Shown here: positions 7,161 to 64,000 of the stretch, in pieces | Layout: the number at the start of each line of letters is the position of its first letter | How positions within the stretch are numbered: the stretch's first letter is position 1 | Source of the DNA: Gymnogyps californianus | Taxonomy: Eukaryota; Chordata; Aves; Accipitriformes; Cathartidae | Direction of reading: 5' to 3' | Assembly: GCF_018139145.2 (NCBI RefSeq) | Contig: NC_059500.1 | Coordinates: forward strand, 26,827,437 to 26,891,436 | Length of the DNA: 64,000 bases | Position numbers and translations under genes: made by a program | The notes under the pieces: model-generated | The model's input: only the letters and a program-made list of their open reading frames with translations | The model's database searches: none | What the model was told of the DNA's origin: nothing

Positions 7161-7184
7161 AGCAGGAGAGCTGTTTGGACTAGT

Positions 7185-27535: not shown

Positions 27536-28492
27536 CTGTTTTGCTTTCAAAAGACGTTTCTGCAGCCAGAAAATCCATGTTTGGGGGACTGCTTTGATCT
27601 GACAGGAAAAGTGGTAAAAGCCACAAAAAGCCATTCAGGTTGAATTCTGCCATCATTCGATAGCTGGCTGGTGTTAACTTGATCTTTCCCACAAAACGGA
27701 GAAGGAAACTGGGCAAACTCTATTTCACCAGAGTGAAATAAAAGGGGAGAAACACCCCTCAAAAAGAAGTAACTGATTTGTGTCAGACTGCTGTAGCAGA
27801 TTGCATGAGAGCGAGTATGAATTCTTCCTGAGCCTGAGGAGTGCAGTAAGACCCCATGAGACCCCCTGAAGGCGGCTGCTATCGTGCATCATGTGGTCTC
27901 CAGAGAAAGCCCGTGTCTTGCAGCTGGGTTCTCCTCCCAGGGCAGACCTCTGGCTCTCTGTGCAGCCCCAGCAGCTGCTCTTGCTGCTTTCTGCCTGCCT
28001 GCCCGCAGAGCCTCACCCCGCTCTGCTTCTCCCCAGGTTCCTGCTGCGTGCCTGAGGCATGCAGGATCACCTGTGGGCCTGGCATTGGGACCTGGGTCTG
28101 GATTTGGGGCCCGGCAGCAGCTCTTGGTGCCAAACCCAGAGGCCGCCTTCTGTCCCTGCCCTCATCTTGTGTGGCTGGCTTGGCTGCTGAAGAGGTCATG
28201 GAGCGGTGTGTGAGGAGGGTGAGGGGCCCTGGGGAGCACGGGGAAGATGCGCTGCCACTTCTGCGGGGATCACTCGCAGCGGAGAGGAGCTATGCTGGGG
28301 GAAGTGCTGCAGAAGGCATGCGATGGCAAGGGGGTGGCGGTGGCAATGAGGGGTGCTGGGGAACTGACGGTGCCCATCTGCCAAAGGCGGGTGCTTTCCA
28401 GGTTGGGGAGAAGAAATGCCAGCACCAAGGCTGGAGCTGGAAGAGCAGGAGGAAAGCCTGTGCTCGAGGGCAGCAGCACGTTCATCTTTCTC

Positions 28493-29636
28493 GGCTCGTG
28501 CAGGGCCTCTTTGCCCTGAGCCGAGCACTGTGGGGCCTGTCCCTCTGCTCTGCCAGTGCCTCTTTGCCCAGAGCTGAGCACCATGGGTCCTGGCCTGGGT
28601 CGTGCAGGGCCTCTTTGTCCTGCTTCGAGTGCCTTGCCGGCGCAGGAGCCAGGCCCCATGGCAGCCAAGGCAGGGCAAAGAGGGCCTGTCTGAGCAGAGG
28701 GCCCAGCCCCATGGGGCTCTCCTCAGGGCAGAGAGGCCAGCAGGGCCACAGGGCCCAGCCCCATGGGGCTCTCCTCAGGGCAGAGAGGCCAGCAGGGCCA
28801 CAGGGCCCAGCCCCATGGGGCTCTCCTCAGGCAGAGGCCAGCAGGGCCAGAGGGCCCGCCTCCATGGCGATCGGATCAGGGCAAAGGGGGCCCGCAGGAG
28901 CACAGGGCCAGGCCCATGGCAGCCTGCTCACGGGAAAGGGGCCCTGCCAGGCCATCGTGCCCAAATCAGGGCAGAGAGGCATTGCGTGAACGAGCAGTGG
29001 GCCAGGCCCTATGGCGGTCCAAGGCCCTCAGGCACCAAAATCAGTACTCAGGGGCCCTGCAAGGCCACATGGCTGATCTCCATGGTGCTTCACTCAAGGC
29101 CGAGGGGCCCTGCAACAGCAGAGGGCCGGGCCCTGTGGCACGCAAGTGAAGGGAAGGAAGCCCTCCAGGACCAGCGGGCCAGACCCTAGGGGACACGAAT
29201 CGGGGCTCAGAAGCCCTGCAAGAGCACAGGCCCAGGCACCATGGCGCCCTGCTCAAGGGAAAGAGGTCCTGCAAGAGCAGAGGACCAAGTCCCGTAACAC
29301 TCAAATAAGGGGAAAGAGAGCCCAGCAAGACCAGACAATCCAACTCAATGGCGCTCTGATCAGCGCAAAGAGGCCCTTCAGGTCCATAGGGCCAGGCGCC
29401 ATGGCACTTGAATGAGGGGAAAGGGCCGCTGCAAGAGCACAGGACCAGGCGCCATGGCACCTCGCTCAAGGGAAATGGGCCCTGCAAGAGCAGAGGGTCG
29501 AGACCCATGGTGGTGTGCTCGGAGGAGAGATGCGCTCAGAGACCAGAGGTCCAGGCCCCATGATAGTCAAAGGAGGGCAAAGAGGTTGTGGCGGGCCAGA
29601 GGGCGAAGCCCCACGGTGCTCTTCTAAAAACAAAGA
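28493..29636. repeat. Inverted GC-rich minisatellite, unit 1
   Basis: About 18 degenerate monomers of 52-54 bp lie in one orientation (about 28641-29636). A typical monomer contains GCCAGGCCCCATGG, then a CTC(A/C)AGG core, then AAAGAGGCCCTGCAAGAGCA. Left of about 28640, some 2.7 monomers of the same motif run in the opposite orientation (CTCTTTGCCC, then GAGCACCATGGGTCCTGG). The array is thus a short inverted repeat followed by a long direct repeat. The period is mostly not a multiple of three, which argues against selection for a repeated protein, even though several frames stay open across it. Confidence 0.85.
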
Positions 29637-29749
29637 GAAGAAACAGTGGGCATAGCCCCAGGAAAAGGGGGAGAAGACAGCACGGGTGAGGACAGCAGTG
29701 CTACCTGCATTGTTAGTAACACTGAGACTTTTTCTGTAGCTTTCACGCC

Positions 29750-29755
29750 TTTATT
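29750..29755 (-). promoter_or_regulatory. Poly(A) signal AATAAA, unit 1 gene
   Basis: TTTATT on the plus strand gives AATAAA on the minus strand, about 120 bp past the stop codon of the TOPORS-like gene. It is conserved in every complete unit. Confidence 0.75.
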
Positions 29756-29873
29756 TTCCTTGTCTGATCATTAGGTCTAGATGACTAAGGAGCACCTTCT
29801 GATCTTCTTGGGGGCCGGCGCATGCCCCAGCTGATGGCCCAGCCCTGGTTTCAGCAGCTCCTGGGGTGTTCTT

Positions 29874-30863
29874 CTAGTGTTGCTGGTGGGGTGGCCTCTT
29901 GTTGGGTGGTGAAGAGGCCTCAGGGCTGCCAGCCCTCCTCTTTGGGGGTCGCCGTGGCCCCCCAGGGGGGCGTTCCCTGCCCTGGCTGGAAGCGGAGGGA
30001 CCTGGCGCAGCCTCCTCTGGCTCCTCCTGGGGCTCTTCTTGCTCCCCCGCGATGGGAACAGGGGCAGAGGGGGGGCTGCTGGGATGCCCACCAAGGGCAG
30101 CTGTGGAGGTGCTGAGGAGCTCATCCACATTGTATCTGGCAGGGCTGCCGGAGGGGGCAGGACTGGATGCGGGAGACCCTCCTCGGGAGGCAGTGGGGCT
30201 GAGGGCACCCGCAGGGCTGCCCTCCCGGCCCCTGGCAGCACGGGTGTCCTCCAGGCCCAGCAGACGGCGGGCCTCCCCGCTGCACAGTTGCATGACAGCA
30301 TCGACGAGATTGCTCACAAATGTCGCCGTGCGGTTATGAAGGAAGAGCCCCAGCAGCCGGACCAGGACATCTTCGTCCAGTCCGAAGAGGACCAGGCTGG
30401 ACATGATGATGTCCTCCACGATGGCTGCCTGCAGATGGTCGTCCTCAAAGACCAGCCCCAGCACCCGGTGCAGCCAGGGCAGCAGGGGCTCGAGGAGAGC
30501 TGGGTGGTCCCAGAAAAGGGTTGCCCAGGTGTCAGCCTGGAGGCTGCCCACTGGAGCCCTGGGCACCTGTCCAGCAGCCCGCGGTGGGGATGCTGCAGGG
30601 CTGTGGGCAGCCTGGTGGGTGACGACTGATGATGCCGTAGGTGGTCTGACGACATACTCTTCAAAGTCGTCGTATGCCCGCACCGAGTGCACGATGGAGC
30701 TCACCCTCCTCTTGCAGAGGGGGCACTCGGGCTTGCTCTCAGCCCACCGCCGGATGCAGGTGAAACAGAAACGGTGGCAGCACGGCATCACGTAGCTGGC
30801 CTGCTCCCAGTCTTCCAGACATATGGGACAGCGGTTGTCCAGCTCCGTGGCCATGCTCTCCAT
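29874..30863 (-). CDS. TOPORS-like RING E3 ubiquitin ligase, unit 1
   Basis: Predicted 329-residue protein. An N-terminal C3HC4 RING has ligands Cys12, Cys15, Cys28, His30, Cys33, Cys36, Cys47 and Cys50 (CPICLEDW...MPCCHRFCFTC...CPLC), all intact. Residues about 111-194 match the helical region after the RING in TOPORS, with the LLPWL, IVEDIIMS, LD and FLHNRT landmarks. The tail is Pro/Ser/Gly-rich and ends with basic patches (PPKRR at 306-310, KRPP near the end), a likely nuclear signal. TOPORS is a nuclear E3 for ubiquitin and SUMO; this protein is about a third of human TOPORS length and lacks its SUMO-ligase and Arg/Ser-rich parts, so ubiquitin ligase is the safest call. The frame opens upstream to a GTG, which I do not accept as a eukaryotic start. 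I chose the first ATG in the coding exon; ATG at 30854 (three codons later, A at -3, G at +4) has better context and may be used. The exon is preceded by a 122-bp intron. Confidence 0.88.
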   Translation of the reverse strand: MESMATELDNRCPICLEDWEQASYVMPCCHRFCFTCIRRWAESKPECPLCKRRVSSIVHSVRAYDDFEEYVVRPPTASSVVTHQAAHSPAASPPRAAGQVPRAPVGSLQADTWATLFWDHPALLEPLLPWLHRVLGLVFEDDHLQAAIVEDIIMSSLVLFGLDEDVLVRLLGLFLHNRTATFVSNLVDAVMQLCSGEARRLLGLEDTRAARGREGSPAGALSPTASRGGSPASSPAPSGSPARYNVDELLSTSTAALGGHPSSPPSAPVPIAGEQEEPQEEPEEAAPGPSASSQGRERPPGGPRRPPKRRAGSPEASSPPNKRPPHQQH

Positions 30864-30939
30864 GTGCTGTGGTGGGCTGGGGAGAGCTGGCGATGACGAG
30901 CCGCTCCCTCTCACTGGCGCTGCAGCAGCAGGTGTCGCG

Positions 30940-31061
30940 CTAGAAAAGGAAGAGAGGCCACGGTCATGGGCTGGCCTGGGCAGGGGTGGAAGAAATGTCC
31001 AGGTGCCTCAAGAACGAAACCCTCCCAACTCCCCAGGGTGGAGTTTGCCCATACAGCTCAC
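30940..31061 (-). other. Predicted 122-bp intron before the coding exon, unit 1 (same in all units)
   Basis: On the minus strand the donor reads CAGAG|GTGAGC (GT at 31061-31060). The acceptor is a strong pyrimidine tract, CTCTCTTCCTTTTCTAG|CG (AG at 30941-30940). Equivalent introns are at 35921-36042, 40841-40962, 45761-45882, 50681-50802, 55600-55721 and 60515-60636. Exon 1 would run from about 31250 to 31062 and be untranslated if the promoter at 31280-31380 is used. It contains one short upstream ATG at 31197, giving a ten-codon frame. No transcript evidence is available. Confidence 0.65.
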
Positions 31062-31280
31062 CTCTGCTGCTGCAAGCACGCCTCCTGGGTGTCCCTGCTG
31101 CCTGAACCTGGCAGGGCAGGGGAAAACCTATGATGACTCTGGAGACGGGCACTGGGAGCTGCAGTCAGCAACTCTCCGGGCACGACACCAGCACCATAAG
31201 CCTCGCTCAACGCTCCAAACCTCGCGTACTCGCTCAGCTGGAGTGAAGGCACGAGCCGGCTGGGTGAGACTCGCCGCCCG

Positions 31281-31378
31281 GATATAAGCAGTGAGGGACG
31301 CGTGGTCACAGTCCATCCCTCAGTGACGTCAGAACCCATCGCTCAGGGACGTCACAGTCCATTCCTCGGGGACGTCAC
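31281..31378 (-). promoter_or_regulatory. CRE-rich promoter of the TOPORS-like gene, unit 1
   Basis: Three CRE motifs lie at 31324-31331 (perfect palindrome TGACGTCA), 31348-31355 and 31371-31378 (both GACGTCAC). Their GACGTCA cores are spaced exactly 23 bp apart as part of a 23-bp tandem repeat. About 40 bp closer to the gene is a TATA-like TTATATCC (minus strand, around 31281-31287). A start site near 31240-31265 would give a leader that splices into the coding exon. CREs are bound by CREB/ATF/CREM factors; use in a particular tissue is not shown. Confidence 0.65.
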
Positions 31379-31899
31379 ACTGGGCCGTCCTTGCCCGCGG
31401 CACTCACCCCAGCAGCGCTGCGGTCCCAGCACATGCGTCTGGGGTTACCACAATGCCACCAGTCCATCCCTCATCTCTTGTCCTGTGCTCGGCATTGGTG
31501 TTTCGTGCCAGTCGCTGAGGTCTTGGCTGTGTCTTCCCAGGGCCCCATCAGGTTTCTGTGGGTGTGGTACCCATCTCGAGGCATATACGGGAAGAGGGTT
31601 TGTTTCATAACGTCCCGCGCCTCCCTGGGAGGCTACAGGACAAAGTCCCACAGGCTCTCCCCACACTTCAGCACTGCTGGCCAGCCCTCTGGGCTGCCCT
31701 GGTTCCTCCCACGGGGGGTCAAAGGCAGCACTTGGCTCTCTCACGGGGATTTTCTCCCATCTTTCTCCCCTAGACAGAGGGCGCAAGGGTGATCCCCTCT
31801 GCTCAGCACCCATCAGGCCTCATCCGGGCACTGCGTCCTCTTTGGTGTCCCAGACAGGAGAGAAGTTAGACACATCGGAGGGGCTCAAGAGAGACTACC

Positions 31900-32222
31900 G
31901 AGACAGTGGGACAGGAGCACTTGCCCTGTGAGGAGGGTCTGTGGGGCTGGGGCTGGTTCAGCATGGATCAGAGAAGGCGTTGAGGGACCTCACAGCACAC
32001 CCCGGTGCCTGTGGGGAAGGGACCAAAGGGATGGAGACAGGGTCTTCCCAGAAGTGCCTGGCGGGAGGGTGAGAGAGAGTGGCATCTCCTGAAACTCAGA
32101 GAAGTTCAGGCTGGAGATACGGAAGAAAAACCAAAATCACCGTGAGGATCGTGAAGCACTGGAGTGGGTTGTCTAGAGAGGCTGTGGGATCCCTGAGCCT
32201 GGAGGTTTTCTAGACCTGAATG
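31900..32222 (+). mobile_element. Old CR1 LINE 3' fragment inside unit 1
   Basis: Degraded but ordered similarity to CR1 3' sequence: a GGGGCTGGTTCAGCATGG block (~31947), AAGTTCAGGCTGGAGATACG (~32103), then GCACTGGAGTGGGTTGTCTA and AGAGAGGCTGTGGGATCCCT (~32157-32193) followed by GAGCCTGGAGGTTTTC. It carries many more changes than the units have from each other, so it predates the amplification. Confidence 0.7.
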
Positions 32223-33411
32223 GGCACAACCCAGAGCACAACTGTCACAAGCCCGCGAAGGGATGCCCTGCGAAGTCCCGGAAGAGAAAGCATTGCCAGT
32301 GGGAAAGGTAGCAAAGGTTTCCAAAGGTGGAACAGCTTCCAGAAGTTGCAATGTCAGAAAACGACTCTCTTGTTCATTCTATTCATAAGCTTTCAAGAGA
32401 ATCTTTAAAAATCTGGTGGGGGATCGAGGGAGTGGTGGGGACTATTTCCTCGTCCTGTTTTGCTTTCAAAAGACGTTTCTGCAGCCAGAAAATCCATGTT
32501 TGGGGGACTGCTTTGATCTGACAGGAAAAGTGGTAAAAGCCACAAAAAGCCATTCAGGTTGAATTCTGCCATCATTCGATAGCTGGCTGGTGTTAACTTG
32601 ATCTTTCCCACAAAACGGAGAAGGAAACTGGGCAAACTCTATTTCACCAGAGTGAAATAAAAGGGGAGAAACACCCCTCAAAAAGAAGTAACTGATTTGT
32701 GTCAGACTGCTGTAGCAGATTGCATGAGAGCGAGTATGAATTCTTCCTGAGCCTGAGGAGTGCAGTAAGACCCCATGAGACCCCCTGAAGGCGGCTGCTA
32801 TCGTGCATCATGTGGTCTCCAGAGAAAGCCCGTGTCTTGCAGCTGGGTTCTCCTCCCAGGGCAGACCTCTGGCTCTCTGTGCAGCCCCAGCAGCTGCTCT
32901 TGCTGCTTTCTGCCTGCCTGCCCGTAGAGCCTCACCCCGCTCTGCTTCTCCCCAGGTTCCTGCTGCGTGCCTGAGGCATGCAGGATCACCTGTGGGCCTG
33001 GCATTGGGACCTGGGTCTGGATTTGGGGCCCGGCAGCAGCTCTTGGTGCCAAACCCAGAGGCCGCCTTCTGTCCCTGCCCTCATCTTGTGTGGCTGGCTT
33101 GGCTGCTGAAGAGGTCATGGAGCGGTGTGTGAGGAGGGTGAGGGGCCCTGGGGAGCACGGGGAAGATGCGCTGCCACTTCTGCGGGGATCACTCGCAGCG
33201 GAGAGGAGCTATGCTGGGGGAAGTGCTGCAGAAGGCATGCGATGGCAAGGGGGTGGCGGTGGCAATGAGGGGTGCTGGGGAACTGACGGTGCCCATCTGC
33301 CAAAGGCGGGTGCTTTCCAGGTTGGGGAGAAGAAATGCCAGCACCAAGGCTGGAGCTGGAAGAGCAGGAGGAAAGCCTGTGCTCGAGGGCAGCAGCACGT
33401 TCATCTTTCTC

Positions 33412-34617
33412 GGCTCGTGCAGGGCCTCTTTGCCCTGAGCCGAGCACTGTGGGGCCTGTCCCTCTGCTCTGCCAGTGCCTCTTTGCCCAGAGCTGAGCAC
33501 CATGGGTCCTGGCCTGGGTCGTGCAGGGCCTCTTTGTCCTGCTTCGAGTGCCTTGCCGGCGCAGGAGCCAGGCCCCATGGCAGCCAAGGCAGGGCAAAGA
33601 GGGCCTGTCTGAGCAGAGGGCCCAGCCCCATGGGGCTCTCCTCAGGGCAGAGAGGCCAGCAGGGCCTGTCTGAGCAGAGGGCCCAGCCCCATGGGGCTCT
33701 CCTCAGGGCAGAGAGGCCAGCAGGGCCACAGGGCCCAGCCCCATGGGGCTCTCCTCAGGGCAGAGAGGCCAGCAGGGCCACAGGGCCCAGCCCCATGGGA
33801 CTCTCCTCAGGCAGAGGCCAGCAGGGCCAGAGGGCCCGCCTCCATGGCGATCGGATCAGGGCAAAGGGGGCCCGCAGGAGCACAGGGCCAGGCCCCATGG
33901 CAGCCTGCTCACGGGAAAGGGGCCCTGCCAGGCCATCGTGCCCAAATCAGGGCAGAGAGGCATTGCGTGAACGAGCAGTGGGCCAGGCCCTATGGCGGTC
34001 CAAGGCCCTCAGGCACCAAAATCAGTACTCAGGGGCCCTGCAAGGCCACGTGGCTGATCTCCATGGTGCTTCACTCAAGGCCGAGGGGCCCTGCAACAGC
34101 AGAGGGCCGGGCCCTGTGGCACGCAAGTGAAGGGAAGGAAGCCCTCCAGGACCAGCGGGCCAGACCCTAGGGGACACGAATCGGGGCTCAGAAGCCCTGC
34201 AAGAGCACAGGCCCAGGCACCATGGCGCCCTGCTCAAGGGAAAGAGGTCCTGCAAGAGCAGAGGACCAAGTCCCGTAACACTCAAATAAGGGGAAAGAGA
34301 GCCCAGCAAGACCAGACAATCCAACTCAATGGCGCTCTGATCAGCGCAAAGAGGCCCTTCAGGTCCATAGGGCCAGGCGCCATGGCACTTGAATGAGGGG
34401 AAAGGGCCGCTGCAAGAGCACAGGACCAGGCGCCATGGCACCTCGCTCAAGGGAAATGGGCCCTGCAAGAGCAGAGGGTCGAGACCCATGGTGGTGTGCT
34501 CGGAGGAGAGATGCGCTCAGAGACCAGAGGTCCAGGCCCCATGATAGTCAAAGGAGGGCAAAGAGGTTGTGGCGGGCCAGAGGGCGAAGCCCCACGGTGC
34601 TCTTCTAAAAACAAAGA
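33412..34617. repeat. Inverted minisatellite, unit 2 (expanded)
   Basis: Same organisation as in unit 1, with the orientation switch near 33,559 and one additional monomer from the 61-bp duplication. This shows that the minisatellite still changes length. Confidence 0.85.
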
Positions 34618-34730
34618 GAAGAAACAGTGGGCATAGCCCCAGGAAAAGGGGGAGAAGACAGCACGGGTGAGGACAGCAGTGCTACTTGCATTGTTAGTAA
34701 CACTGAGACTTTTTCTGTAGCTTTCACGCC

Positions 34731-34736
34731 TTTATT
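34731..34736 (-). promoter_or_regulatory. Poly(A) signal, unit 2 gene
   Basis: AATAAA on the minus strand, same place relative to the stop codon as in unit 1. Confidence 0.75.
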
Positions 34737-34854
34737 TTCCTTGTCTGATCATTAGGTCTAGATGACTAAGGAGCACCTTCTGATCTTCTTGGGGGCCGGC
34801 GCATGCCCCAGCTGATGGCCCAGCCCTGGTTTCAGCAGCTCCTGGGGTGTTCTT

Positions 34855-35844
34855 CTAGTGTTGCTGGTGGGGTGGCCTCTTGTTGGGTGGTGAAGAGGCC
34901 TCAGGGCTGCCAGCCCTCCTCTTTGGGGGTCGCCGTGGCCCCCCAGGGGGGCGTTCCCTGCCCTGGCTGGAAGCGGAGGGACCTGGCGCAGCCTCCTCTG
35001 GCTCCTCCTGGGGCTCTTCTTGCTCCCCCGCGATGGGAACAGGGGCAGAGGGGGGGCTGCTGGGATGCCCACCAAGGGCAGCTGTGGAGGTGCTGAGGAG
35101 CTCATCCACATTGTATCTGGCAGGGCTGCCGGAGGGGGCAGGACTGGATGCGGGAGACCCTCCTCGGGAGGCAGTGGGGCTGAGGGCACCCGCAGGGCTG
35201 CCCTCCCGGCCCCTGGCAGCACGGGTGTCCTCCAGGCCCAGCAGACGGCGGGCCTCCCCGCTGCACAGTTGCATGACAGCATCGACGAGATTGCTCACAA
35301 ATGTCGCCGTGCGGTTATGAAGGAAGAGCCCCAGCAGCCGGACCAGGACATCTTCGTCCAGTCCGAAGAGGACCAGGCTGGACATGATGATGTCCTCCAC
35401 GATGGCTGCCTGCAGATGGTCGTCCTCAAAGACCAGCCCCAGCACCCGGTGCAGCCAGGGCAGCAGGGGCTCGAGGAGAGCTGGGTGGTCCCAGAAAAGG
35501 GTTGCCCAGGTGTCAGCCTGGAGGCTGCCCACTGGAGCCCTGGGCACCTGTCCAGCAGCCCGCGGTGGGGATGCTGCAGGGCTGTGGGCAGCCTGGTGGG
35601 TGACGACTGATGATGCCGTAGGTGGTCTGACGACATACTCTTCAAAGTCGTCGTATGCCCGCACCGAGTGCACGATGGAGCTCACCCTCCTCTTGCAGAG
35701 GGGGCACTCGGGCTTGCTCTCAGCCCACCGCCGGATGCAGGTGAAACAGAAACGGTGGCAGCACGGCATCACGTAGCTGGCCTGCTCCCAGTCTTCCAGA
35801 CATATGGGACAGCGGTTGTCCAGCTCCGTGGCCATGCTCTCCAT
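34855..35844 (-). CDS. TOPORS-like RING E3 ubiquitin ligase, unit 2
   Basis: Predicted protein identical to the unit 1 product (329 residues from this ATG), with all eight RING zinc ligands and the helical TOPORS region intact. Splice sites and promoter are also unchanged, so there is no sequence reason to think this copy inactive. Confidence 0.88.
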   Translation of the reverse strand: MESMATELDNRCPICLEDWEQASYVMPCCHRFCFTCIRRWAESKPECPLCKRRVSSIVHSVRAYDDFEEYVVRPPTASSVVTHQAAHSPAASPPRAAGQVPRAPVGSLQADTWATLFWDHPALLEPLLPWLHRVLGLVFEDDHLQAAIVEDIIMSSLVLFGLDEDVLVRLLGLFLHNRTATFVSNLVDAVMQLCSGEARRLLGLEDTRAARGREGSPAGALSPTASRGGSPASSPAPSGSPARYNVDELLSTSTAALGGHPSSPPSAPVPIAGEQEEPQEEPEEAAPGPSASSQGRERPPGGPRRPPKRRAGSPEASSPPNKRPPHQQH

Positions 35845-36261
35845 GTGCTGTGGTGGGCTGGGGAGAGCTGGCGATGACGAGCCGCTCCCTCTCACTGGCG
35901 CTGCAGCAGCAGGTGTCGCGCTAGAAAAGGAAGAGAGGCCACGGTCATGGGCTGGCCTGGGCAGGGGTGGAAGAAATGTCCAGGTGCCTCAAGAACGAAA
36001 CCCTCCCAACTCCCCAGGGTGGAGTTTGCCCATACAGCTCACCTCTGCTGCTGCAAGCACGCCTCCTGGGTGTCCCTGCTGCCTGAACCTGGCAGGGCAG
36101 GGGAAAACCTATGATGACTCTGGAGACGGGCACTGGGAGCTGCAGTCAGCAACTCTCCGGGCACGACACCAGCACCATAAGCCTCGCTCAACGCTCCAAA
36201 CCTCGCGTACTCGCTCAGCTGGAGTGAAGGCACGAGCCGGCTGGGTGAGACTCGCCGCCCG

Positions 36262-36359
36262 GATATAAGCAGTGAGGGACGCGTGGTCACAGTCCATCCC
36301 TCAGTGACGTCAGAACCCATCGCTCAGGGACGTCACAGTCCATTCCTCGGGGACGTCAC
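36262..36359 (-). promoter_or_regulatory. CRE-rich promoter, unit 2
   Basis: TATA-like box and three 23-bp-spaced CRE motifs, same sequence as unit 1. Confidence 0.65.
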
Positions 36360-36880
36360 ACTGGGCCGTCCTTGCCCGCGGCACTCGCCCCAGCAGCGCT
36401 GCGGTCCCAGCACATGCGTCTGGGGTTACCACAATGCCACCAGTCCATCCCTCATCTCTTGTCCTGTGCTCGGCATTGGTGTTTCGTGCCAGTCGCTGAG
36501 GTCTTGGCTGTGTCTTCCCAGGGCCCCATCAGGTTTCTGTGGGTGTGGTACCCATCTCGAGGCATATACGGGAAGAGGGTTTGTTTCATAACGTCCCGCG
36601 CCTCCCTGGGAGGCTACAGGACAAAGTCCCACAGGCTCTCCCCACACTTCAGCACTGCTGGCCAGCCCTCTGGGCTGCCCTGGTTCCTCCCACGGGGGGT
36701 CAAAGGCAGCACTTGGCTCTCTCACGGGGATTTTCTCCCATCTTTCTCCCCTAGACAGAGGGCGCAAGGGTGATCCCCTCTGCTCAGCACCCATCAGGCC
36801 TCATCCGGGCACTGCGTCCTCTTTGGTGTCCCAGACAGGAGAGAAGTTAGACACATCGGAGGGGCTCAAGAGAGACTACC

Positions 36881-37203
36881 GAGACAGTGGGACAGGAGCA
36901 CTTGCCCTGTGAGGAGGGTCTGTGGGGCTGGGGCTGGTTCAGCATGGATCAGAGAAGGCGTTGAGGGACCTCACAGCACACCCCGGTGCCTGTGGGGAAG
37001 GGACCAAAGGGATGGAGACAGGGTCTTCCCAGAAGTGCCTGGCGGGAGGGTGAGAGAGAGTGGCATCTCCTGAAACTCAGAGAAGTTCAGGCTGGAGATA
37101 CGGAAGAAAAACCAAAATCACCGTGAGGATCGTGAAGCACTGGAGTGGGTTGTCTAGAGAGGCTGTGGGATCCCTGAGCCTGGAGGTTTTCTAGACCTGA
37201 ATG
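36881..37203 (+). mobile_element. CR1 fragment, unit 2
   Basis: Copy of the unit 1 CR1 fragment, amplified as part of the unit and not an independent insertion. Confidence 0.7.
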
Positions 37204-38392
37204 GGCACAACCCAGAGCACAACTGTCACAAGCCCGCAAAGGGATGCCCTGCGAAGTCCCGGAAGAGAAAGCATTGCCAGTGGGAAAGGTAGCAAAGGTT
37301 TCCAAAGGTGGAACAGCTTCCAGAAGTTGCAATGTCAGAAAACGACTCTCTTGTTCATTCTATTCATAAGCTTTCAAGAGAATCTTTAAAAATCTGGTGG
37401 GGGATCGAGGGAGTGGTGGGGACTATTTCCTCGTCCTGTTTTGCTTTCAAAAGACGTTTCTGCAGCCAGAAAATCCATGTTTGGGGGACTGCTTTGATCT
37501 GACAGGAAAAGTGGTAAAAGCCACAAAAAGCCATTCAGGTTGAATTCTGCCATCATTCGATAGCTGGCTGGTGTTAACTTGATCTTTCCCACAAAACGGA
37601 GAAGGAAACTGGGCAAACTCTATTTCACCAGAGTGAAATAAAAGGGGAGAAACACCCCTCAAAAAGAAGTAACTGATTTGTGTCAGACTGCTGTAGCAGA
37701 TTGCATGAGAGCGAGTATGAATTCTTCCTGAGCCTGAGGAGTGCAGTAAGACCCCATGAGACCCCCTGAAGGCGGCTGCTATCGTGCATCATGTGGTCTC
37801 CAGAGAAAGCCCGTGTCTTGCAGCTGGGTTCTCCTCCCAGGGCAGACCTCTGGCTCTCTGTGCAGCCCCAGCAGCTGCTCTTGCTGCTTTCTGCCTGCCT
37901 GCCCGCAGAGCCTCACCCCGCTCTGCTTCTCCCCAGGTTCCTGCTGCGTGCCTGAGGCATGCAGGATCACCTGTGGGCCTGGCATTGGGACCTGGGTCTG
38001 GATTTGGGGCCCGGCAGCAGCTCTTGGTGCCAAACCCAGAGGCCGCCTTCTGTCCCTGCCCTCATCTTGTGTGGCTGGCTTGGCTGCTGAAGAGGTCATG
38101 GAGCGGTGTGTGAGGAGGGTGAGGGGCCCTGGGGAGCACGGGGAAGATGCGCTGCCACTTCTGCGGGGATCACTCGCAGCGGAGAGGAGCTATGCTGGGG
38201 GAAGTGCTGCAGAAGGCATGCGATGGCAAGGGGGTGGCGGTGGCAATGAGGGGTGCTGGGGAACTGACGGTGCCCATCTGCCAAAGGCGGGTGCTTTCCA
38301 GGTTGGGGAGAAGAAATGCCAGCACCAAGGCTGGAGCTGGAAGAGCAGGAGGAAAGCCTGTGCTCGAGGGCAGCAGCACGTTCATCTTTCTC

Positions 38393-39537: not shown

Positions 39538-39650
39538 GAAGAAACAGTGGGCATAGCCCCAGGAAAAGGGGGAGAAGACAGCACGGGTGAGGACAGCAGT
39601 GCTACCTGCATTGTTAGTAACACTGAGACTTTTTCTGTAGCTTTCACGCC

Positions 39651-39656
39651 TTTATT
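39651..39656 (-). promoter_or_regulatory. Poly(A) signal, unit 3 gene
   Basis: AATAAA on the minus strand. Confidence 0.75.
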
Positions 39657-54297: not shown

Positions 54298-54410
54298 GAA
54301 GAAACAGTGGGCATAGCCCCAGGAAAAGGGGGAGAAGACAGCACGGGTGAGGACAGCAGTGCTACCTGCATTGTTGGTAACACTGAGACTTTTTCTGTAG
54401 CTTTCACGCC

Positions 54411-54416
54411 TTTATT
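54411..54416 (-). promoter_or_regulatory. Poly(A) signal, unit 6 gene
   Basis: AATAAA on the minus strand. Confidence 0.75.
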
Positions 54417-54533
54417 TTCCTTGTCTGATCATTAGTCTAGATGACTAAGGAGCACCTTCTGATCTTCTTGGGGGCCGGCGCATGCCCCAGCTGATGGCCC
54501 AGCCCTGGTTTCAGCAGCTCCTGGGGTGTTCTT

Positions 54534-55523
54534 CTAGTGTTGCTGGTGGGGTGGCCTCTTGTTGGGTGGTGAAGAGGCCTCAGGGCTGCCAGCCCTCCTC
54601 TTTGGGGGTCGCCGTGGCCCCCCAGGGGGGCGTTCCCTGCCCTGGCTGGAAGCGGAGGGACCTGGCGCAGCCTCCTCTGGCTCCTCCTGGGGCTCTTCTT
54701 GCTCCCCCGCGATGGGAACAGGGGCAGAGGGGGGGCTGCTGGGATGCCCACCAAGGGCAGCTGTGGAGGTGCTGAGGAGCTCATCCACATTGTATCTGGC
54801 AGGGCTGCCGGAGGGGGCAGGACTGGATGCGGGAGACCCTCCTCGGGAGGCAGTGGGGCTGAGGGCACCCGCAGGGCTGCCCTCCCGGCCCCTGGCAGCA
54901 CGGGTGTCCTCCAGGCCCAGCAGACGGCGGGCCTCCCCGCTGCACAGTTGCATGACAGCATCGACGAGATTGCTCACAAATGTCGCCGTGCGGTTATGAA
55001 GGAAGAGCCCCAGCAGCCGGACCAGGACATCTTCGTCCAGTCCGAAGAGGACCAGGCTGGACATGATGATGTCCTCCACGATGGCTGCCTGCAGATGGTC
55101 GTCCTCAAAGACCAGCCCCAGCACCCGGTGCAGCCAGGGCAGCAGGGGCTCGAGGAGAGCTGGGTGGTCCCAGAAAAGGGTTGCCCAGGTGTCAGCCTGG
55201 AGGCTGCCCACTGGAGCCCTGGGCACCTGTCCAGCAGCCCGCGGTGGGGATGCTGCAGGGCTGTGGGCAGCCTGGTGGGTGACGACTGATGATGCCGTAG
55301 GTGGTCTGACGACATACTCTTCAAAGTCGTCGTATGCCCGCACCGAGTGCACGATGGAGCTCACCCTCCTCTTGCAGAGGGGGCACTCGGGCTTGCTCTC
55401 AGCCCACCGCCGGATGCAGGTGAAACAGAAACGGTGGCAGCACGGCATCACGTAGCTGGCCTGCTCCCAGTCTTCCAGACATATGGGACAGCGGTTGTCC
55501 AGCTCCGTGGCCATGCTCTCCAT
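54534..55523 (-). CDS. TOPORS-like RING E3 ubiquitin ligase, unit 6
   Basis: Intact frame, protein identical to units 1-5. Confidence 0.88.
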   Translation of the reverse strand: MESMATELDNRCPICLEDWEQASYVMPCCHRFCFTCIRRWAESKPECPLCKRRVSSIVHSVRAYDDFEEYVVRPPTASSVVTHQAAHSPAASPPRAAGQVPRAPVGSLQADTWATLFWDHPALLEPLLPWLHRVLGLVFEDDHLQAAIVEDIIMSSLVLFGLDEDVLVRLLGLFLHNRTATFVSNLVDAVMQLCSGEARRLLGLEDTRAARGREGSPAGALSPTASRGGSPASSPAPSGSPARYNVDELLSTSTAALGGHPSSPPSAPVPIAGEQEEPQEEPEEAAPGPSASSQGRERPPGGPRRPPKRRAGSPEASSPPNKRPPHQQH

Positions 55524-55940
55524 GTGCTGTGGTGGGCTGGGGAGAGCTGGCGATGACGAGCCGCTCCCTCTCACTGGCGCTGCAGCAGCAGGTGTCGCGC
55601 TAGAAAAGGAAGAGAGGCCACGGTCATGGGCTGGCCTGGGCAGGGGTGGAAGAAATGTCCAGGTGCCTCAAGAACGAAACCCTCCCAACTCCCCAGGGTG
55701 GAGTTTGCCCATACAGCTCACCTCTGCTGCTGCAAGCACGCCTCCTGGGTGTCCCTGCTGCCTGAACCTGGCAGGGCAGGGGAAAACCTATGATGACTCT
55801 GGAGACGGGCACTGGGAGCTGCAGTCAGCAACTCTCCGGGCACGACACCAGCACCATAAGCCTCGCTCAACGCTCCAAACCTCGCGTACTCGCTCAGCTG
55901 GAGTGAAGGCACGAGCCGGCTGGGTGAGACTCGCCGCCCG

Positions 55941-56038
55941 GATATAAGCAGTGAGGGACGCGTGGTCACAGTCCATCCCTCAGTGACGTCAGAACCCATC
56001 GCTCAGGGACGTCACAGTCCATTCCTCGGGGACGTCAC
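55941..56038 (-). promoter_or_regulatory. CRE-rich promoter, unit 6
   Basis: TATA-like box and three CREs, unchanged. Confidence 0.65.
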
Positions 56039-56559
56039 ACTGGGCCGTCCTTGCCCGCGGCACTCGCCCCAGCAGCGCTGCGGTCCCAGCACATGCGTCT
56101 GGGGTTACCACAATGCCACCAGTCCATCCCTCATCTCTTGTCCTGTGCTCGGCATTGGTGTTTCGTGCCAGTCGCTGAGGTCTTGGCTGTGTCTTCCCAG
56201 GGCCCCATCAGGTTTCTGTGGCTGTGGTACCCATCTCGAGGCATATACGGGAAGAGGGTTTGTTTCATAACGTCCCGCGCCTCCCTGGGAGGCTACAGGA
56301 CAAAGTCCCACAGGCTCTCCCCACACTTCAGCACTGCTGGCCAGCCCTCTGGGCTGCCCTGGTTCCTCCCACGGGGGGTCAAAGGCAGCACTTGGCTCTC
56401 TCACGGGGATTTTCTCCCATCTTTCTCCCCTAGACAGAGGGCGCAAGGGTGATCCCCTCTGCTCAGCACCCATCAGGCCTCATCCGGGCACTGCGTCCTC
56501 TTTGGTGTCCCAGACAGGAGAGAAGTTAGACACATCGGAGGGGCTCAAGAGAGACTACC

Positions 56560-56882
56560 GAGACAGTGGGACAGGAGCACTTGCCCTGTGAGGAGGGTCT
56601 GTGGGGCTGGGGCTGGTTCAGCATGGATCAGAGAAGGCGTTGAGGGACCTCACAGCACACCCCGGTGCCTGTGGGGAAGGGACCAAAGGGATGGAGACAG
56701 GGTCTTCCCAGAAGTGCCTGGCGGGAGGGTGAGAGAGAGTGGCATCTCCTGAAACTCAGAGAAGTTCAGGCTGGAGATACGGAAGAAAAACCAAAATCAC
56801 CGTGAGGATCGTGAAGCACTGGAGTGGGTTGTCTAGAGAGGCTGTGGGATCCCTGAGCCTGGAGGTTTTCTAGACCTGAATG
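56560..56882 (+). mobile_element. CR1 fragment, unit 6
   Basis: Copy amplified with the unit. Confidence 0.7.
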
Positions 56883-58071
56883 GGCACAACCCAGAGCACA
56901 ACTGTCACAAGCCCGCAAAGGGATGCCCTGCGAAGTCCCGGAAGAGAAAGCATTGCCAGTGGGAAAGGTAGCAAAGGTTTCCAAAGGTGGAACAGCTTCC
57001 AGAAGTTGCAATGTCAGAAAACGACTCTCTTGTTCATTCTATTCATAAGCTTTCAAGAGAATCTTTAAAAATCTGGTGGGGGATCGAGGGAGTGGTGGGG
57101 ACTATTTCCTCGTCCTGTTTTGCTTTCAAAAGACGTTTCTGCAGCCAGAAAATCCATGTTTGGGGGACTGCTTTGATCTGACAGGAAAAGTGGTAAAAGC
57201 CACAAAAAGCCATTCAGGTTGAATTCTGCCATCATTCGATAGCTGGCTGGTGTTAACTTGATCTTTCCCACAAAACGGAGAAGGAAACTGGGCAAACTCT
57301 ATTTCACCAGAGTGAAATAAAAGGGGAGAAACACCCCTCAAAAAGAAGTAACTGATTTGTGTCAGACTGCTGTAGCAGATTGCATGAGAGCGAGTATGAA
57401 TTCTTCCTGAGCCTGAGGAGTGCAGTAAGACCCCATGAGACCCCCTGAAGGCGGCTGCTATCGTGCATCATGTGGTCTCCAGAGAAAGCCCGTGTCTTGC
57501 AGCTGGGTTCTCCTCCCAGGGCAGACCTCTGGCTCTCTGTGCAGCCCCAGCAGCTGCTCTTGCTGCTTTCTGCCTGCCTGCCCGCAGAGCCTCACCCCGC
57601 TCTGCTTCTCCCCAGGTTCCTGCTGCGTGCCTGAGGCATGCAGGATCACCTGTGGGCCTGGCATTGGGACCTGGGTCTGGATTTGGGGCCCGGCAGCAGC
57701 TCTTGGTGCCAAACCCAGAGGCCGCCTTCTGTCCCTGCCCTCATCTTGTGTGGCTGGCTTGGCTGCTGAAGAGGTCATGGAGCGGTGTGTGAGGAGGGTG
57801 AGGGCCCTGGGGAGCACGGGGAAGATGCGCTGCCACTTCTGCGGGGATCACTCGCAGCGGAGAGGAGCTATGCTGGGGGAAGTGCTGCAGAAGGCATGCG
57901 ATGGCAAGGGGGTGGCGGTGGCAATGAGGGGTGCTGGGGAACTGACGGTGCCCATCTGCCAAAGGCGGGTGCTTTCCAGGTTGGGGAGAAGAAATGCCAG
58001 CACCAAGGCTGGAGCTGGAAGAGCAGGAGGAAAGCCTGTGCTCGAGGGCAGCAGCACGTTCATCTTTCTCG

Positions 58072-59214
58072 GCTCGTGCAGGGCCTCTTTGCCCTGAGCC
58101 GAGCACTGTGGGGCCTGTCCCTCTGCTCTGCCAGTGCCTCTTTGCCCAGAGCTGAGCACCATGGGTCCTGGCCTGGGTCGTGCAGGGCCTCTTTGTCCTG
58201 CTTCGAGTGCCTTGCCGGCGCAGGAGCCAGGCCCCATGGCAGCCAAGGCAGGGCAAAGAGGGCCTGTCTGAGCAGAGGGCCCAGCCCCATGGGGCTCTCC
58301 TCAGGGCAGAGAGGCCAGCAGGGCCACAGGGCCCAGCCCCATGGGGCTCTCCTCAGGGCAGAGAGGCCAGCAGGGCCACAGGGCCCAGCCCCATGGACTC
58401 TCCTCAGGCAGAGGCCAGCAGGGCCAGAGGGCCCGCCTCCATGGCGATCGGATCAGGGCAAAGGGGCCTGCAGGAGCACAGGGCCAGGCCCCATGGCAGC
58501 CTGCTCACGGGAAAGGGGCCCTGCCAGGCCATCGTGCCCAAATCAGGGCAGAGAGGCATTGCGTGAACGAGCAGTGGGCCAGGCCCTATGGCGGTCCAAG
58601 GCCCTCAGGCACCAAAATCAGTACTCAGGGGCCCTGCAAGGCCACATGGCTGATCTCCATGGTGCTTCACTCAAGGCCGAGGGGCCCTGCAACAGCAGAG
58701 GGCCGGGCCCTGTGGCACGCAAGTGAAGGGAAGGAAGCCCTCCAGGACCAGCGGGCCAGACCCTAGGGGACACGAATCGGGGCTCAGAAGCCCTGCAAGA
58801 GCACAGGCCCAGGCACCATGGCGCCCTGCTCAAGGGAAAGAGGTCCTGCAAGAGCAGAGGACCAAGTCCCGTAACACTCAAATAAGGGGAAAGAGAGCCC
58901 AGCAAGACCAGACAATCCAACTCAATGGCGCTCTGATCAGCGCAAAGAGGCCCTTCAGGTCCATAGGGCCAGGCGCCATGGCACTTGAATGAGGGGAAAG
59001 GGCCGCTGCAAGAGCACAGGACCAGGCGCCATGGCACCTCGCTCAAGGGAAATGGGCCCTGCAAGAGCAGAGGGTCGAGACCCATGGTGGTGTGCTCGGA
59101 GGAGAGATGCGCTCAGAGACCAGAGGTCCAGGCCCCATGATAGTCAAAGGAGGGCAAAGAGGTTGTGGCGGGCCAGAGGGCGAAGCCCCACGGTGCTCTT
59201 CTAAAAACAAAGAG
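58072..59214. repeat. Inverted minisatellite, unit 7
   Basis: Same structure, with two single-base losses. Confidence 0.82.
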
Positions 59215-59326
59215 AAGAAACAGTGGGCATAGCCCCAGGAAAAGGGGGAGAAGACAGCACGGGTGAGGACAGCAGTGCTACCTGCATTGTTGGTAACACT
59301 GAGACTTTTTCTGTAGCTTTCACGCC

Positions 59327-59332
59327 TTTATT
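59327..59332 (-). promoter_or_regulatory. Poly(A) signal, unit 7 gene
   Basis: AATAAA on the minus strand. Confidence 0.7.
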
Positions 59333-59450
59333 TTCCTTGTCTGATCATTAGGTCTAGATGACTAAGGAGCACCTTCTGATCTTCTTGGGGGCCGGCGCAT
59401 GCCCCAGCTGATGGCCCAGCCCTGGTTTCAGCAGCTCCTGGGGTGTTCTT

Positions 59451-60438
59451 CTAGTGTTGCTGGTGGGGTGGCCTCTTGTTGGGTGGTGAAGAGGCCTCAG
59501 GGCTGCCAGCCCTCCTCTTTGGGGGTCGCCGTGGCCCCCCAGGGGGGCGTTCCCTGCCCTGGCTGGAAGCGGAGGGACCTGGCGCAGCCTCCTCTGGCTC
59601 CTCCTGGGGCTCTTCTTGCTCCCCCGCGATGGGAACAGGGGCAGAGGGGGGCTGCTGGGATGCCCACCAAGGGCAGCTGTGGAGGTGCTGAGGAGCTCAT
59701 CCACATTGTATCTGGCAGGGCTGCCGGAGGGGGCAGGACTGGATGCGGGAGACCCTCCTCGGGAGGCAGTGGGGCTGAGGGCACCCGCAGGGCTGCCCTC
59801 CCGGCCCCTGCAGCACGGGTGTCCTCCAGGCCCAGCAGACGGCGGGCCTCCCCGCTGCACAGTTGCATGACAGCATCGACGAGATTGCTCACAAATGTCG
59901 CCGTGCGGTTATGAAGGAAGAGCCCCAGCAGCCGGACCAGGACATCTTCGTCCAGTCCGAAGAGGACCAGGCTGGACATGATGATGTCCTCCACGATGGC
60001 TGCCTGCAGATGGTCGTCCTCAAAGACCAGCCCCAGCACCCGGTGCAGCCAGGGCAGCAGGGGCTCGAGGAGAGCTGGGTGGTCCCAGAAAAGGGTTGCC
60101 CAGGTGTCAGCCTGGAGGCTGCCCACTGGAGCCCTGGGCACCTGTCCAGCAGCCCGCGGTGGGGATGCTGCAGGGCTGTGGGCAGCCTGGTGGGTGACGA
60201 CTGATGATGCCGTAGGTGGTCTGACGACATACTCTTCAAAGTCGTCGTATGCCCGCACCGAGTGCACGATGGAGCTCACCCTCCTCTTGCAGAGGGGGCA
60301 CTCGGGCTTGCTCTCAGCCCACCGCCGGATGCAGGTGAAACAGAAACGGTGGCAGCACGGCATCACGTAGCTGGCCTGCTCCCAGTCTTCCAGACATATG
60401 GGACAGCGGTTGTCCAGCTCCGTGGCCATGCTCTCCAT
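59451..60438 (-). pseudogene. TOPORS-like RING gene with two frameshifts, unit 7
   Basis: The RING and helical region read normally from the ATG, but a lost G near 59,811 (CTGCAG for CTGGCAG) changes the frame right after the ...LLGLEDTRAA stretch. A second lost G near 59,650, in a run of seven, shifts it again. The Pro/Ser-rich tail and basic end are therefore misread. The catalytic half would be intact even if the shifts are real. Because these two indels belong to a cluster of homopolymer indels from 57.8 to 63.3 kb, a consensus error is at least as likely as a true pseudogene. Confidence 0.7.
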
Positions 60439-60853
60439 GTGCTGTGGTGGGCTGGGGAGAGCTGGCGATGACGAGCCGCTCCCTCTCACTGGCGCTGCAG
60501 CAGCAGGTGTCGCGCTAGAAAAGGAAGAGAGGCCACGGTCATGGGCTGGCCTGGGCAGGGGTGGAAGAAATGTCCAGGTGCCTCAAGAACGAAACCCTCC
60601 CAACTCCCCAGGGTGGAGTTTGCCCATACAGCTCACCTCTGCTGCTGCAAGCACGCCTCCTGGGTGTCCCTGCTGCCTGAACCTGGCAGGGCAGGGGAAA
60701 ACCTATGATGACTCTGGAGACGGGCACTGGGAGCTGCAGTCAGCAACTCTCGGGCACGACACCAGCACCATAAGCCTCGCTCAACGCTCCAAACCTCGCG
60801 TACTCGCTCAGCTGGAGTGAAGGCACGAGCCGGCTGGGTGAGACTCGCCGCCC

Positions 60854-60950
60854 GGATATAAGCAGTGAGGACGCGTGGTCACAGTCCATCCTCAGTGACG
60901 TCAGAACCCATCGCTCAGGGACGTCACAGTCCATTCCTCGGGGACGTCAC
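60854..60950 (-). promoter_or_regulatory. CRE-rich promoter, unit 7
   Basis: The CREs (60896-60903, 60920-60927, 60943-60950) and the TATA-like box are kept. Single-base losses near 60,869 and 60,890 shorten the spacing between them by 2 bp. Confidence 0.6.
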
Positions 60951-61472
60951 ACTGGGCCGTCCTTGCCCGCGGCACTCGCCCAGCAGCGCTGCGGTCCCAG
61001 CACATGCGTCTGGGGTTACCACAATGCCACCAGTCCGTCCCTCATCTCTTGTCCTGTGCTCGGCATTGGTGTTTCGTGCCAGTCGCTGAGGTCTTGGCTG
61101 TGTCTTCCCAGGGCCCCATCAGGTTTCTGTGGGTGTGGTACCCATCTCGAGGCATATACGGGAAGAGGGTTTGTTTCATAACGTCCCGCGCCTCCTGGGA
61201 GGCTACAGGACAAAGTCCCACAGGCTCTCCCCACACTTCAGCACTGCTGGCCAGCCCTCTGGGCTGCCCTGGTTCCTCCCACGGGGGGTCAAAGGCAGCA
61301 CTTGGCTCTCTCACGGGGATTTTCTCCCATCTTTCTCCCCTAGACAGAGGGCGCAAGGGTGATCCCCTCTGCTCAGCACCCATCAGGCCTCATCCGGGCA
61401 CTGCGTCCTCTTTGGTGTCCCAGACAGGAGAGAAGTTAGACACATCGGAGGGGCTCAAGAGAGACTACCGAG

Positions 61473-61789
61473 ACAGTGGGACAGGAGCACTTGCCCTGTG
61501 AGGAGGTCTGTGGGGCTGGGCTGGTTCAGCATGGATCAGAGAAGGCGTTGAGGGACCTCACAGCACACCCCGGTGCCTGTGGGAAGGGACCAAAGGGATG
61601 GAGACAGGGTCTTCCCAGAAGTGCCTGGCGGGAGGTGAGAGAGAGTGGCATCTCCTGAAACTCAGAGAAGTTCAGGCTGGAGATACGGAAGAAAAACCAA
61701 AATCACCGTGAGGATCGTGAAGCACTGGAGTGGGTTGTCTAGAGAGGCTGTGGGATCCCTGAGCCTGGAGGTTTTCTAGACCTGAATGG
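61473..61789 (+). mobile_element. CR1 fragment, unit 7
   Basis: Copy amplified with the unit, with several single-base losses. Confidence 0.65.
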
Positions 61790-62020
61790 GCACAACCCAG
61801 AGCACAACTGTCACAAGCCCGCGAAGGGATGCCCTGCGAAGTCCCGGAAGAGAAAGCATTGCCAGTGGGAAAGGTAGCAAAGGTTTCCAAAGGTGGAACA
61901 GCTTCCAGAAGTTGCAATGTCAGAAAACGACTCTCTTGTTCATTCTATTCATAAGCTTTCAAGAGAATCTTTAAAAAATCTGGTGGGGGATCGAGGGAGT
62001 GGTGGGGACTATTCCTCGTC

Positions 62021-64000
62021 CTGTTTTGCTTTCAAAAGACGTTTCTGCAGCCAGAAAATCCATGTTTGGGGGACTGCTTTGATCTGACAGGAAAAGTGGT
62101 AAAAGCCACAAAAAGCCATTCAGGTTGAATTCTGCCATCATTCGATAGCTGGCTGGTGTTAACTTGATCTTTCCCACAAAACGGAGAAGGAAAACTGGGC
62201 AAACTCTATTTCACCAGAGTGAAATAAAAGGGAGAAACACCCCTCAAAAAGAAGTAACTGATTTGTGTCAGACTGCTGTAGCAGATTGCATGAGAGCGAG
62301 TATGAATTCTTCCTGAGCCTGAGGAGTGCAGTAAGACCCATGAGACCCCCTGAAGGCGGCTGCTATCGTGCATCATGTGGTCTCCAGAGAAAGCCCGTGT
62401 CTTGCAGCTGGGTTCTCCTCCCAGGGCAGACCTCTGGCTCTCTGTGCAGCCCCAGCAGCTGCTCTTGCTGCTTTCTGCCTGCCTGCCCGCAGAGCCTCAC
62501 CCCGCTCTGCTTCTCCCCAGGTTCTGCTGCGTGCCTGAGGCATGCAGGATCACCTGTGGGCCTGGCATTGGGACCTGGGTCTGGATTTGGGCCCCGGCAG
62601 CAGCTCTTGGTGCCAACCCAGAGGCCGCCTTCTGTCCCTGCCCTCATCTTGTGTGGCTGGCTTGGCTGCTGAAGAGGTCATGGAGCGGTGTGTGAGGAGG
62701 GTGAGGGCCCTGGGGAGCACGGGGAAGATGCGCTGCACTTCTGCGGGATCACTCGCAGCGGAGAGGAGCTATGCTGGGGGAAGTGCTGCAGAAGGCATGC
62801 GATGGCAAGGGGGTGGCGGTGGCAATGAGGGGTGCTGGGGAACTGACGGTGCCCATCTGCCAAAGGCGGTGTGCTTTCCAGGTTGGGAGAAGAAAATGCC
62901 AGCACCAAGGCTGGAGCTGAAGAGCAGAGGAAAAGCCTGTGCTCGAGGGCAGCAGCACGTTCATCTTTTCTCGGCTCGTGGCAGGGCCTCTTTGCCCTGA
63001 GCCGAGCACTGTGGGGCCTGTCCTCTGCTCTGCCAGTGCCTCTTTGCCCCAGAGCTGAGCACCATGGGTCCTGGCCTGGGTCGTGCAGGGCCTCTTTGTC
63101 CTGCTTTCGAGTGCCTTGCCGGCGCAGGAGCCAGGCCCCATGGCAGCCAAGGCAGGGCAAGAGAGGCCTGTTCTGAGCAGAGGGCCCAGCCCCATGGTGC
63201 TCTCCTCAGGGCAGAGAGGCAGCAGGCCACAGGCCCAGCCCCATGGGCTCTCCTCAGGCAGAAGGCGCAGCAGGGCCACAGGCCCAGCCCATGGGACTCT
63301 CCTCAGGCAGAGGCCAGCAGGGCCAGAGGGCCCGCCTCCATGGCGATCGGATCAGGGCAAAGGGGGCCTGCAGGAGCACAGGGCCAGGCCCCATGGCAGC
63401 CTGCTCACGGGAAAGGGGCCCTGCCAGGCCATCGTGCCCAAATCAGGGCAGAGAGGCATTGCGTGAACGAGCAGTGGGCCAGGCCCTATGGCGGTCCAAG
63501 GCCCTCAGGCACCAAAATCAGTACTCAGGGGCCCTGCAAGGCCACATGGCTGATCTCCATGGTGCTTCACTCAAGGCCGAGGGGCCCTGCAACAGCAGAG
63601 GGCCGGGCCCTGTGGCACGCAAGTGAAGGGAAGGAAGCCCTCCAGGACCAGCGGGCCAGACCCTAGGGGACACGAATCGGGGCTCAGAAGCCCTGCAAGA
63701 GCACAGGCCCAGGCACCATGGCGCCCTGCTCAAGGGAAAGAGGTCCTGCAAGAGCAGAGGACCAAGTCCCGTAACACTCAAATAAGGGGAAAGAGAGCCC
63801 AGCAAGACCAGACAATCCAACTCAATGGCGCTCTGATCAGCGCAAAGAGGCCCTTCAGGTCCATAGGGCCAGGCGCCATGGCACTTGAATGAGGGGAAAG
63901 GGCCGCTGCAAGAGCACAGGACCAGGCGCCATGGCACCTCGCTCAAGGGAAATGGGCCCTGCAAGAGCAGAGGGTCGAGACCCATGGTGGTGTGCTCGGA
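62021..64000. repeat. Macrosatellite unit 8, partial (cut by window end)
   Basis: The first 1,980 bp of a further unit. Indels and a few substitutions are very dense from about 62,190 to 63,295, after which the sequence again matches the consensus without indels to 64,000. The TOPORS-like gene of this unit would start beyond the window. Confidence 0.92.
62978..64000. repeat. Inverted minisatellite, unit 8 (partial)
   Basis: Same motif and orientation switch (near 63,125). The left half is disturbed by indels, the right half is clean and runs off the window. Confidence 0.78.

Follow-up and report, generated by a model that had tools for sequence, protein, structure and literature searches.

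We analysed a 64-kb window of Gymnogyps californianus DNA (64,000 nucleotides of contig NC_059500.1; all positions are those of the window), the right part of which is occupied by a tandem array with a predicted gene for a TOPORS-type RING protein in each complete unit. Comparison of the window with itself revealed head-to-tail repeats with a periodicity of 4920 bp from position ~27520 to the window end. The unit borders were set by an anchor chosen close to the array's left edge, which recurs at eight places (27536, 32455, 37436, 42356, 47276, 52196, 57115 and 62021). Positions 27536 to 64000 thereby comprise seven complete units of 4906–4981 bp, mostly 4920 bp (in order: 4919, 4981, 4920, 4920, 4920, 4919 and 4906 bp), and a partial unit of 1980 bp. 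The array is visible over 36.5 kb and extends past the right end of the window. The GC content, calculated in 2-kb bins, is 36–46% in the left flank and 57–64% in the bins from 28001 on. The window thus shows the hallmarks of a gene-bearing macrosatellite: near-identical, kilobase-sized head-to-tail units with a gene in each complete one. The coding sequence (CDS) occupies unit positions 2340–3329 and the partial unit stops at 1980, and hence lacks the coding exon; the original prediction that seven complete units and a partial one of 4.92 kb each carry the gene thus held for the complete units and failed for the partial one. A 52-bp minisatellite lies inside the units, at 28698–28919 and at the equivalent place of the others; it is the site of the 60-bp gain of unit 2 and of several other differences between units. 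The units are as follows.

27536..32454, minus strand: unit 1 (4919 bp), at the left array edge; CDS 29874–30863, TATA-like box at 31280, cAMP-response element (CRE) at 31324
32455..37435, minus strand: unit 2 (4981 bp), with a 60-bp insertion within the minisatellite; CDS 34855–35844
37436..42355, minus strand: unit 3 (4920 bp), the reference unit; CDS 39775–40764
42356..47275, minus strand: unit 4 (4920 bp); CDS 44695–45684
47276..52195, minus strand: unit 5 (4920 bp); CDS 49615–50604
52196..57114, minus strand: unit 6 (4919 bp); CDS 54534–55523
57115..62020, minus strand: unit 7 (4906 bp); CDS region 59454–60438, frameshifted by single-base deletions; 16 indel events relative to unit 5
62021..64000, no strand assigned: unit 8, partial (1980 bp), without coding exon; 22 indel events relative to unit 5

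Searched with exact patterns on the minus strand, every complete unit has a CRE (TGACGTCA), a TATA-like box, a splice donor and acceptor and a poly(A) signal, each occurring once (7/7 for each). The gene layout that had been read from the letters, a CRE/TATA promoter, a small leader intron, a single coding exon and a poly(A) signal, was therefore recovered in every complete unit. In unit 3, these features are located as follows.

41225..41284, minus strand: CRE repeats, with TGACGTC at 41278, 41255 and 41232 (first bases), 23 bp apart, the last being the full TGACGTCA
41181..41190, minus strand: TATA-like box, GCTTATATCC
40841..40962, minus strand: intron of 122 bp (GT...AG); exon 1 ends at 40963 and exon 2 starts at 40840
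39775..40764, minus strand: coding exon of the 329-residue RING-PWI protein
39651..39656, minus strand: poly(A) signal AATAAA

A first-order model predicts 0.025 full CREs per unit. The junction of the 122-bp intron is supported by the resemblance of the spliced sequence QQQSATPAAAAPVRGSGS to EQQSVTPAAAAPVRGSGS of the annotated duck protein P0071. As no in-frame ATG was found in the 260 nucleotides read upstream of the unit-3 intron, exon 1 is probably untranslated. The CpG value is 0.82 in the promoter bin versus 0.17–0.61 in the 19 other bins, CpG being depleted elsewhere in the unit. Six of the seven coding exons are identical across all 990 bp; the seventh, in unit 7, is frameshifted, so that 59497–60438 reads 313 instead of 329 residues, and its residues 1–207, 211–260 and 264–329 match at 100% but are spread over three frames. 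Since stop-free runs of at least 329 codons arose in 16 of 300 first-order random units of matching composition, the length of the open reading frame (ORF) is weak evidence and the gene call rests on homology. A plus-strand ORF over the minisatellite (444 residues in units 3–6, other lengths in units 1, 2, 7 and 8) was rejected as a gene because it has no Pfam match, is broken by differences between units and has a stop-free length that is not rare here. The search for RNA genes gave no Rfam match at gathering score and no tRNA.

The 329-residue product has a RING finger at its N-terminus, followed by a predicted PWI-fold domain and a disordered tail whose basic end is conserved. Pfam returned RING-type families and weak zinc-finger matches, among which only the RING families pass the cut-off. 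The RING region matches a stretch of human TOPORS at 55% over 71 residues. The eight zinc ligands and the E2-contact residues are conserved in 55 aligned members (the window protein and 54 of the 120 listed homologues described below), apart from four rows that have gaps at C12 and C15. When the whole model was searched by fold, RING chains took up all rows but two, which were PWI; a separate prediction and comparison of the helical part then identified a PWI-like helical domain after the RING. Taken together, these results agree with the earlier proposal of a TOPORS-type RING protein with the helical domain of TOPORS. A simple pattern for SUMO-interacting motifs, run with no positive control, matches at residues 134–138, 167–173 and 201–204, all of them within predicted helices or where these end; the long tail bearing such motifs that marks a TOPORS orthologue is absent from the 329-residue product. 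Judged by its sequence, the product is TOPORS-derived and has lost this tail.

To compare the units with each other, a query was cut from unit 3 in a different phase. Its full-length matches show 99.7–100% identity, and the match at the left edge 99.75% across 4000 bp; the copy with the 60-bp insertion was matched in split pieces (98.1% and 99.9%) and the last partial copy at 98.6%. Units 1–6 differ pairwise by 1–7 substitutions and none of the 15 pairs is identical; near-identical units and an array that leaves the window had both been anticipated. Three variants are shared by neighbours: unit positions 1358 (units 1–2), 2181 (units 1–3) and 4028 (units 4–6). Inside the CDS, which makes up 20% of the unit, fall none of the 11 variable substitution sites of units 1–6 (p ~0.09). 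The differences of units 7 and 8 are of another kind: of their 16 and 22 indel events relative to unit 5, 37 of 38 are single-base and mostly in homopolymers, giving 3.2 and 10.7 events per kb versus 0–0.2 per kb in the other units. Such single-base indels, mostly homopolymer deletions, rise toward the right window end (57115–64000). They look like read error with falling coverage, and the end of the contig may be near on the right; the frameshift of unit 7 is therefore probably not biological. For unit 8, 23 substitutions are also listed; they lie largely beside indels in the minisatellite, and we treated them as noise of the alignment. That units 1–6 can be told apart, and that unit 2 has a private 60-bp insertion, argues against an assembler repeating one unit: the array is real.

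A homologue search with the window protein returned 167 proteins at E ≤ 1e-3; the family counts, species and record placements given here rest on the 120 that were listed. All 85 species-labelled rows among these 120 are birds; as we take the groups, they include ducks, geese, guineafowl, a screamer, parrots and suboscine passerines. Among the matches listed, the closest is 97% identical to the window protein, followed by proteins of Grus japonensis (79%) and Limosa lapponica (77%). This closest protein is encoded on a contig of 4991 bp, about one unit, and belongs to a cluster of 19 sequences, which would be in keeping with the collapse of an array in the genome of a relative and is suggestive only. 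In a tree of the window protein and 119 of the 120 listed homologues, the window protein groups with Grus, Limosa and four further rows in a seven-row set with support 100. The other Grus and Mycteria rows are spread over several other supported sets, and the deepest forks are weak. Within species, the 11 listed rows each of Grus and Mycteria (55 pairs each) have a median identity of 57% in both, with ranges of 48–99% and 48–92%, respectively. Given this divergence and the spread over tree sets, the family looks like an old birth-and-death family, and the array in the window is a single member of it that has stayed uniform. The family clusters P0103, P0071, P0114 and P0060 represent 93, 33, 29 and 23 member sequences, respectively. 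Other birds may therefore have additional Topors-like genes in high copy number. As scans of viral contigs and genome contigs yielded no relative whose DNA could serve for the ratio of nonsynonymous to synonymous substitution rates, constraint is shown at the protein level only. No paper on an avian Topors-like array was found among the papers that searches of the open-licence PMC literature listed. In the text available from a duck gonad paper (PMC9643717), the word 'topors' occurs once and may mean either the canonical gene or the Topors-like family; it also occurs once in that of a chicken liver paper (PMC7563548).

Where rows of equal record size were counted as sharing one record, all listed rows lie on one record in Grus japonensis (11/11, 90.6 Mb), Mycteria americana (11/11, 80.0 Mb), Bubo (4/4, 101.5 Mb), Balearica (3/3, 87.6 Mb) and Cygnus (2/2, 81.5 Mb). 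Among rows with a contig given, the same record holds 3/3 in Anas (86.2 Mb) and 4/5 in Anser (85.2 Mb). Record sizes of 80–100 Mb would presumably fit the Z chromosome, and we infer that the family may be Z-linked. Against placement on a single chromosome weigh Aquila (45.2 and 88.2 Mb), Heliangelus (73.9 and 115.5 Mb) and Aix (78.2 and 15.0 Mb), each with two rows on two large records. The rows of Caloenas, Limosa, Fregata, Haliaeetus, Pygoscelis papua and Nyctibius bracteatus (two each) and Patagioenas (four) lie on different records; as these are mostly small, the seven taxa do not decide the matter. According to a table in PMC1876622, TOPORS itself is located on human 9p21 and on chicken Z.

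From these sequences, the locus is probably a functional gene-bearing macrosatellite of a TOPORS-derived ligase, apparently undescribed. We consider it fairly probable that this homogenised array increases the dose of a short ligase of the TOPORS type, the germ line being the probable site. The units would stay nearly identical through unequal crossing-over and gene conversion. Transcription would be driven in the germ line by CRE-binding factors, and the many promoters would jointly increase the output of a single protein, with germ cells as the most likely site. In germ cells, CRE-driven promoters serve the activator CREM. Precedents are found among the testis-expressed amplicons of birds and, in human, among macrosatellites that code for protein, RS447 being one. 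The RING is predicted to recruit an E2 and so to form an active ubiquitin ligase, while the PWI domain and the basic tail may place the protein in the nucleus on RNA or chromatin partners. As the SUMO-binding tail of TOPORS is missing, the product would either address targets different from those of TOPORS or be its competitor, and would not serve as a SUMO-targeted ligase. Several points weigh against this interpretation. Pfam gave no PWI match for the window protein at E values up to 1, and the human TOPORS sequence used as reference is a provisional one. The CRE and TATA matches are short. The proposal of germ-line use is based on the promoter type and on precedents. Variants at unit positions 1535 (units 2, 3 and 6) and 4723 (units 1 and 7) ignore neighbourhood. 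Finally, with the CDS share and p value given above, the lack of variable sites in the CDS does not demonstrate selection inside the array.

This last result, together with the little time for decay that near-identical units imply, also suits a passive macrosatellite, silent and expanded by unequal exchange, in which the gene has stayed intact for no other reason than that the units are recent copies of a family member that once worked. The low CpG across most of the unit would fit germ-line methylation of such an array; however, CpG is retained at the promoter, the promoter, splice and poly(A) signals are kept in all seven complete units, and the RING ligands and E2-facing residues are constrained across the family, so that we judge this explanation unlikely. 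A wider proposal, which we regard as quite unlikely, is that amplification of tail-less TOPORS-type ligases has recurred in birds on the Z, the chromosome of the parent gene, and that the ligases serve as germ-line dosage weapons in sex-chromosome or satellite conflict. If true, the window array would be the case in which homogenisation has gone furthest, and it could have a part in the fertility of males or the sterility of hybrids, as has been proposed for the feline X macrosatellite DXZ4 (PMC8662614). That the short protein serves mainly as a decoy, drawing E2 enzymes or PWI partners away from full-length TOPORS and ligating no targets of its own, would agree with the retention of the TOPORS RING and PWI domain once the long tail had gone, but we find it very unlikely, as a pure decoy would not need the zinc ligands and E2-facing residues kept family-wide, and the basic C-terminal end is conserved too. 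Least credible of all is an assembly artefact in which one or two real copies were multiplied by the assembler: the dense indels of units 7–8 show a poorly assembled right part and the region leaves the window, but the distinct units 1–6, the private insertion of unit 2 and, suggestively only, the unit-sized contig from another source that represents 19 clustered sequences speak against it.

The bird family, which is multicopy and made up of short RING-PWI ligases, and the near-identical array of one of its members together offer a comparative system for asking how arrays keep their genes intact, how copy number sets ligase dose and whether such arrays have a role in the germ line. To our knowledge, the coding macrosatellites that have been well studied are human. 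Such arrays readily collapse in assemblies, and the family may thus be undercounted. Germ-line expression, or Z linkage with copy-number divergence between species, would, if true, sharply raise the interest of the locus.

The AT-rich left flank contains other repeats. A dispersed repeat of ~600 bp is present in three copies that are 82–85% alike.

2709..3309, plus strand: copy of the ~600-bp repeat
22633..23236, plus strand: copy of the ~600-bp repeat
18884..19458, minus strand: copy of the ~600-bp repeat
6035..7179, minus strand: decayed pieces resembling a Ty3/gypsy-like retroelement

In the last of these, Pfam gave a chromodomain (8.7e-5, below its cut-off), a weak SH3 (0.03) and a weak integrase (0.022), and a 190-bp stretch is repeated at 5996–6186 and 7187–7373. 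Ty3/gypsy-like elements are unusual in birds. At 14176–14625, five overlapping windows resemble part of the array unit, with local scores of 49–61 versus a median of 26 in 732 comparisons. The ORFs of this stretch, which have no Pfam match, we take to be a CR1 long interspersed nuclear element; the resemblance suggests that the unit probably holds a CR1 remnant. Next to the array, positions 27437–27516 align weakly with the unit end (score 44 versus at most 26 in 200 shuffles); since seven other flank windows score at least 44 against the whole unit, five of them within the CR1-like stretch, this match gives no more than a hint that the array arose from sequence that persists at its edge. No decayed gene copy was found in the left flank, where tblastn gave only one 19-residue chance match (E 8.1).

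Compared with known systems, the window protein shares with TOPORS a homologous RING and the helical domain that follows it. TOPORS has ~1045 residues; the window protein, in contrast, has 329, no long tail with SUMO-interacting motifs, and a gene that is tandemly amplified. The avian predictions named 'E3 ubiquitin-protein ligase Topors-like' or 'TOPRS ligase' have the same RING, helical region and basic end, but they are automatic annotations, whereas the window shows one subfamily as a near-identical array. Bird multicopy protein-coding genes in repetitive DNA are also found in chicken: as described in parts of PMC9974502, the dot chromosomes carry such genes (e.g., 386 intact copies of OR29G), the amplified genes are testis-biased on 7 of 10 dot chromosomes, and a hypermethylated region of ~9 Mb on the Z harbours testis-expressed amplicons. 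The genes named there are different ones, 'topors' being absent from the main text of that paper. The human RS447 array consists of 4.7-kb units, each encoding a deubiquitinating enzyme, in 20–103 units among 37 people, according to a passage of PMC3599962. RS447/USP17 lies at 4p16.1 and encodes a deubiquitinase in human, whereas the array described here encodes a RING ligase; Pfam gives no peptidase for the window protein, which is thus no USP17 member, and we claim no sequence homology. The idea of an E3 counterpart of USP17 went further than this, as neither homology nor shared function is shown; what stands is the layout, namely tandem units of similar size (4.7 versus 4.92 kb), one gene per unit and a product of the ubiquitin system.

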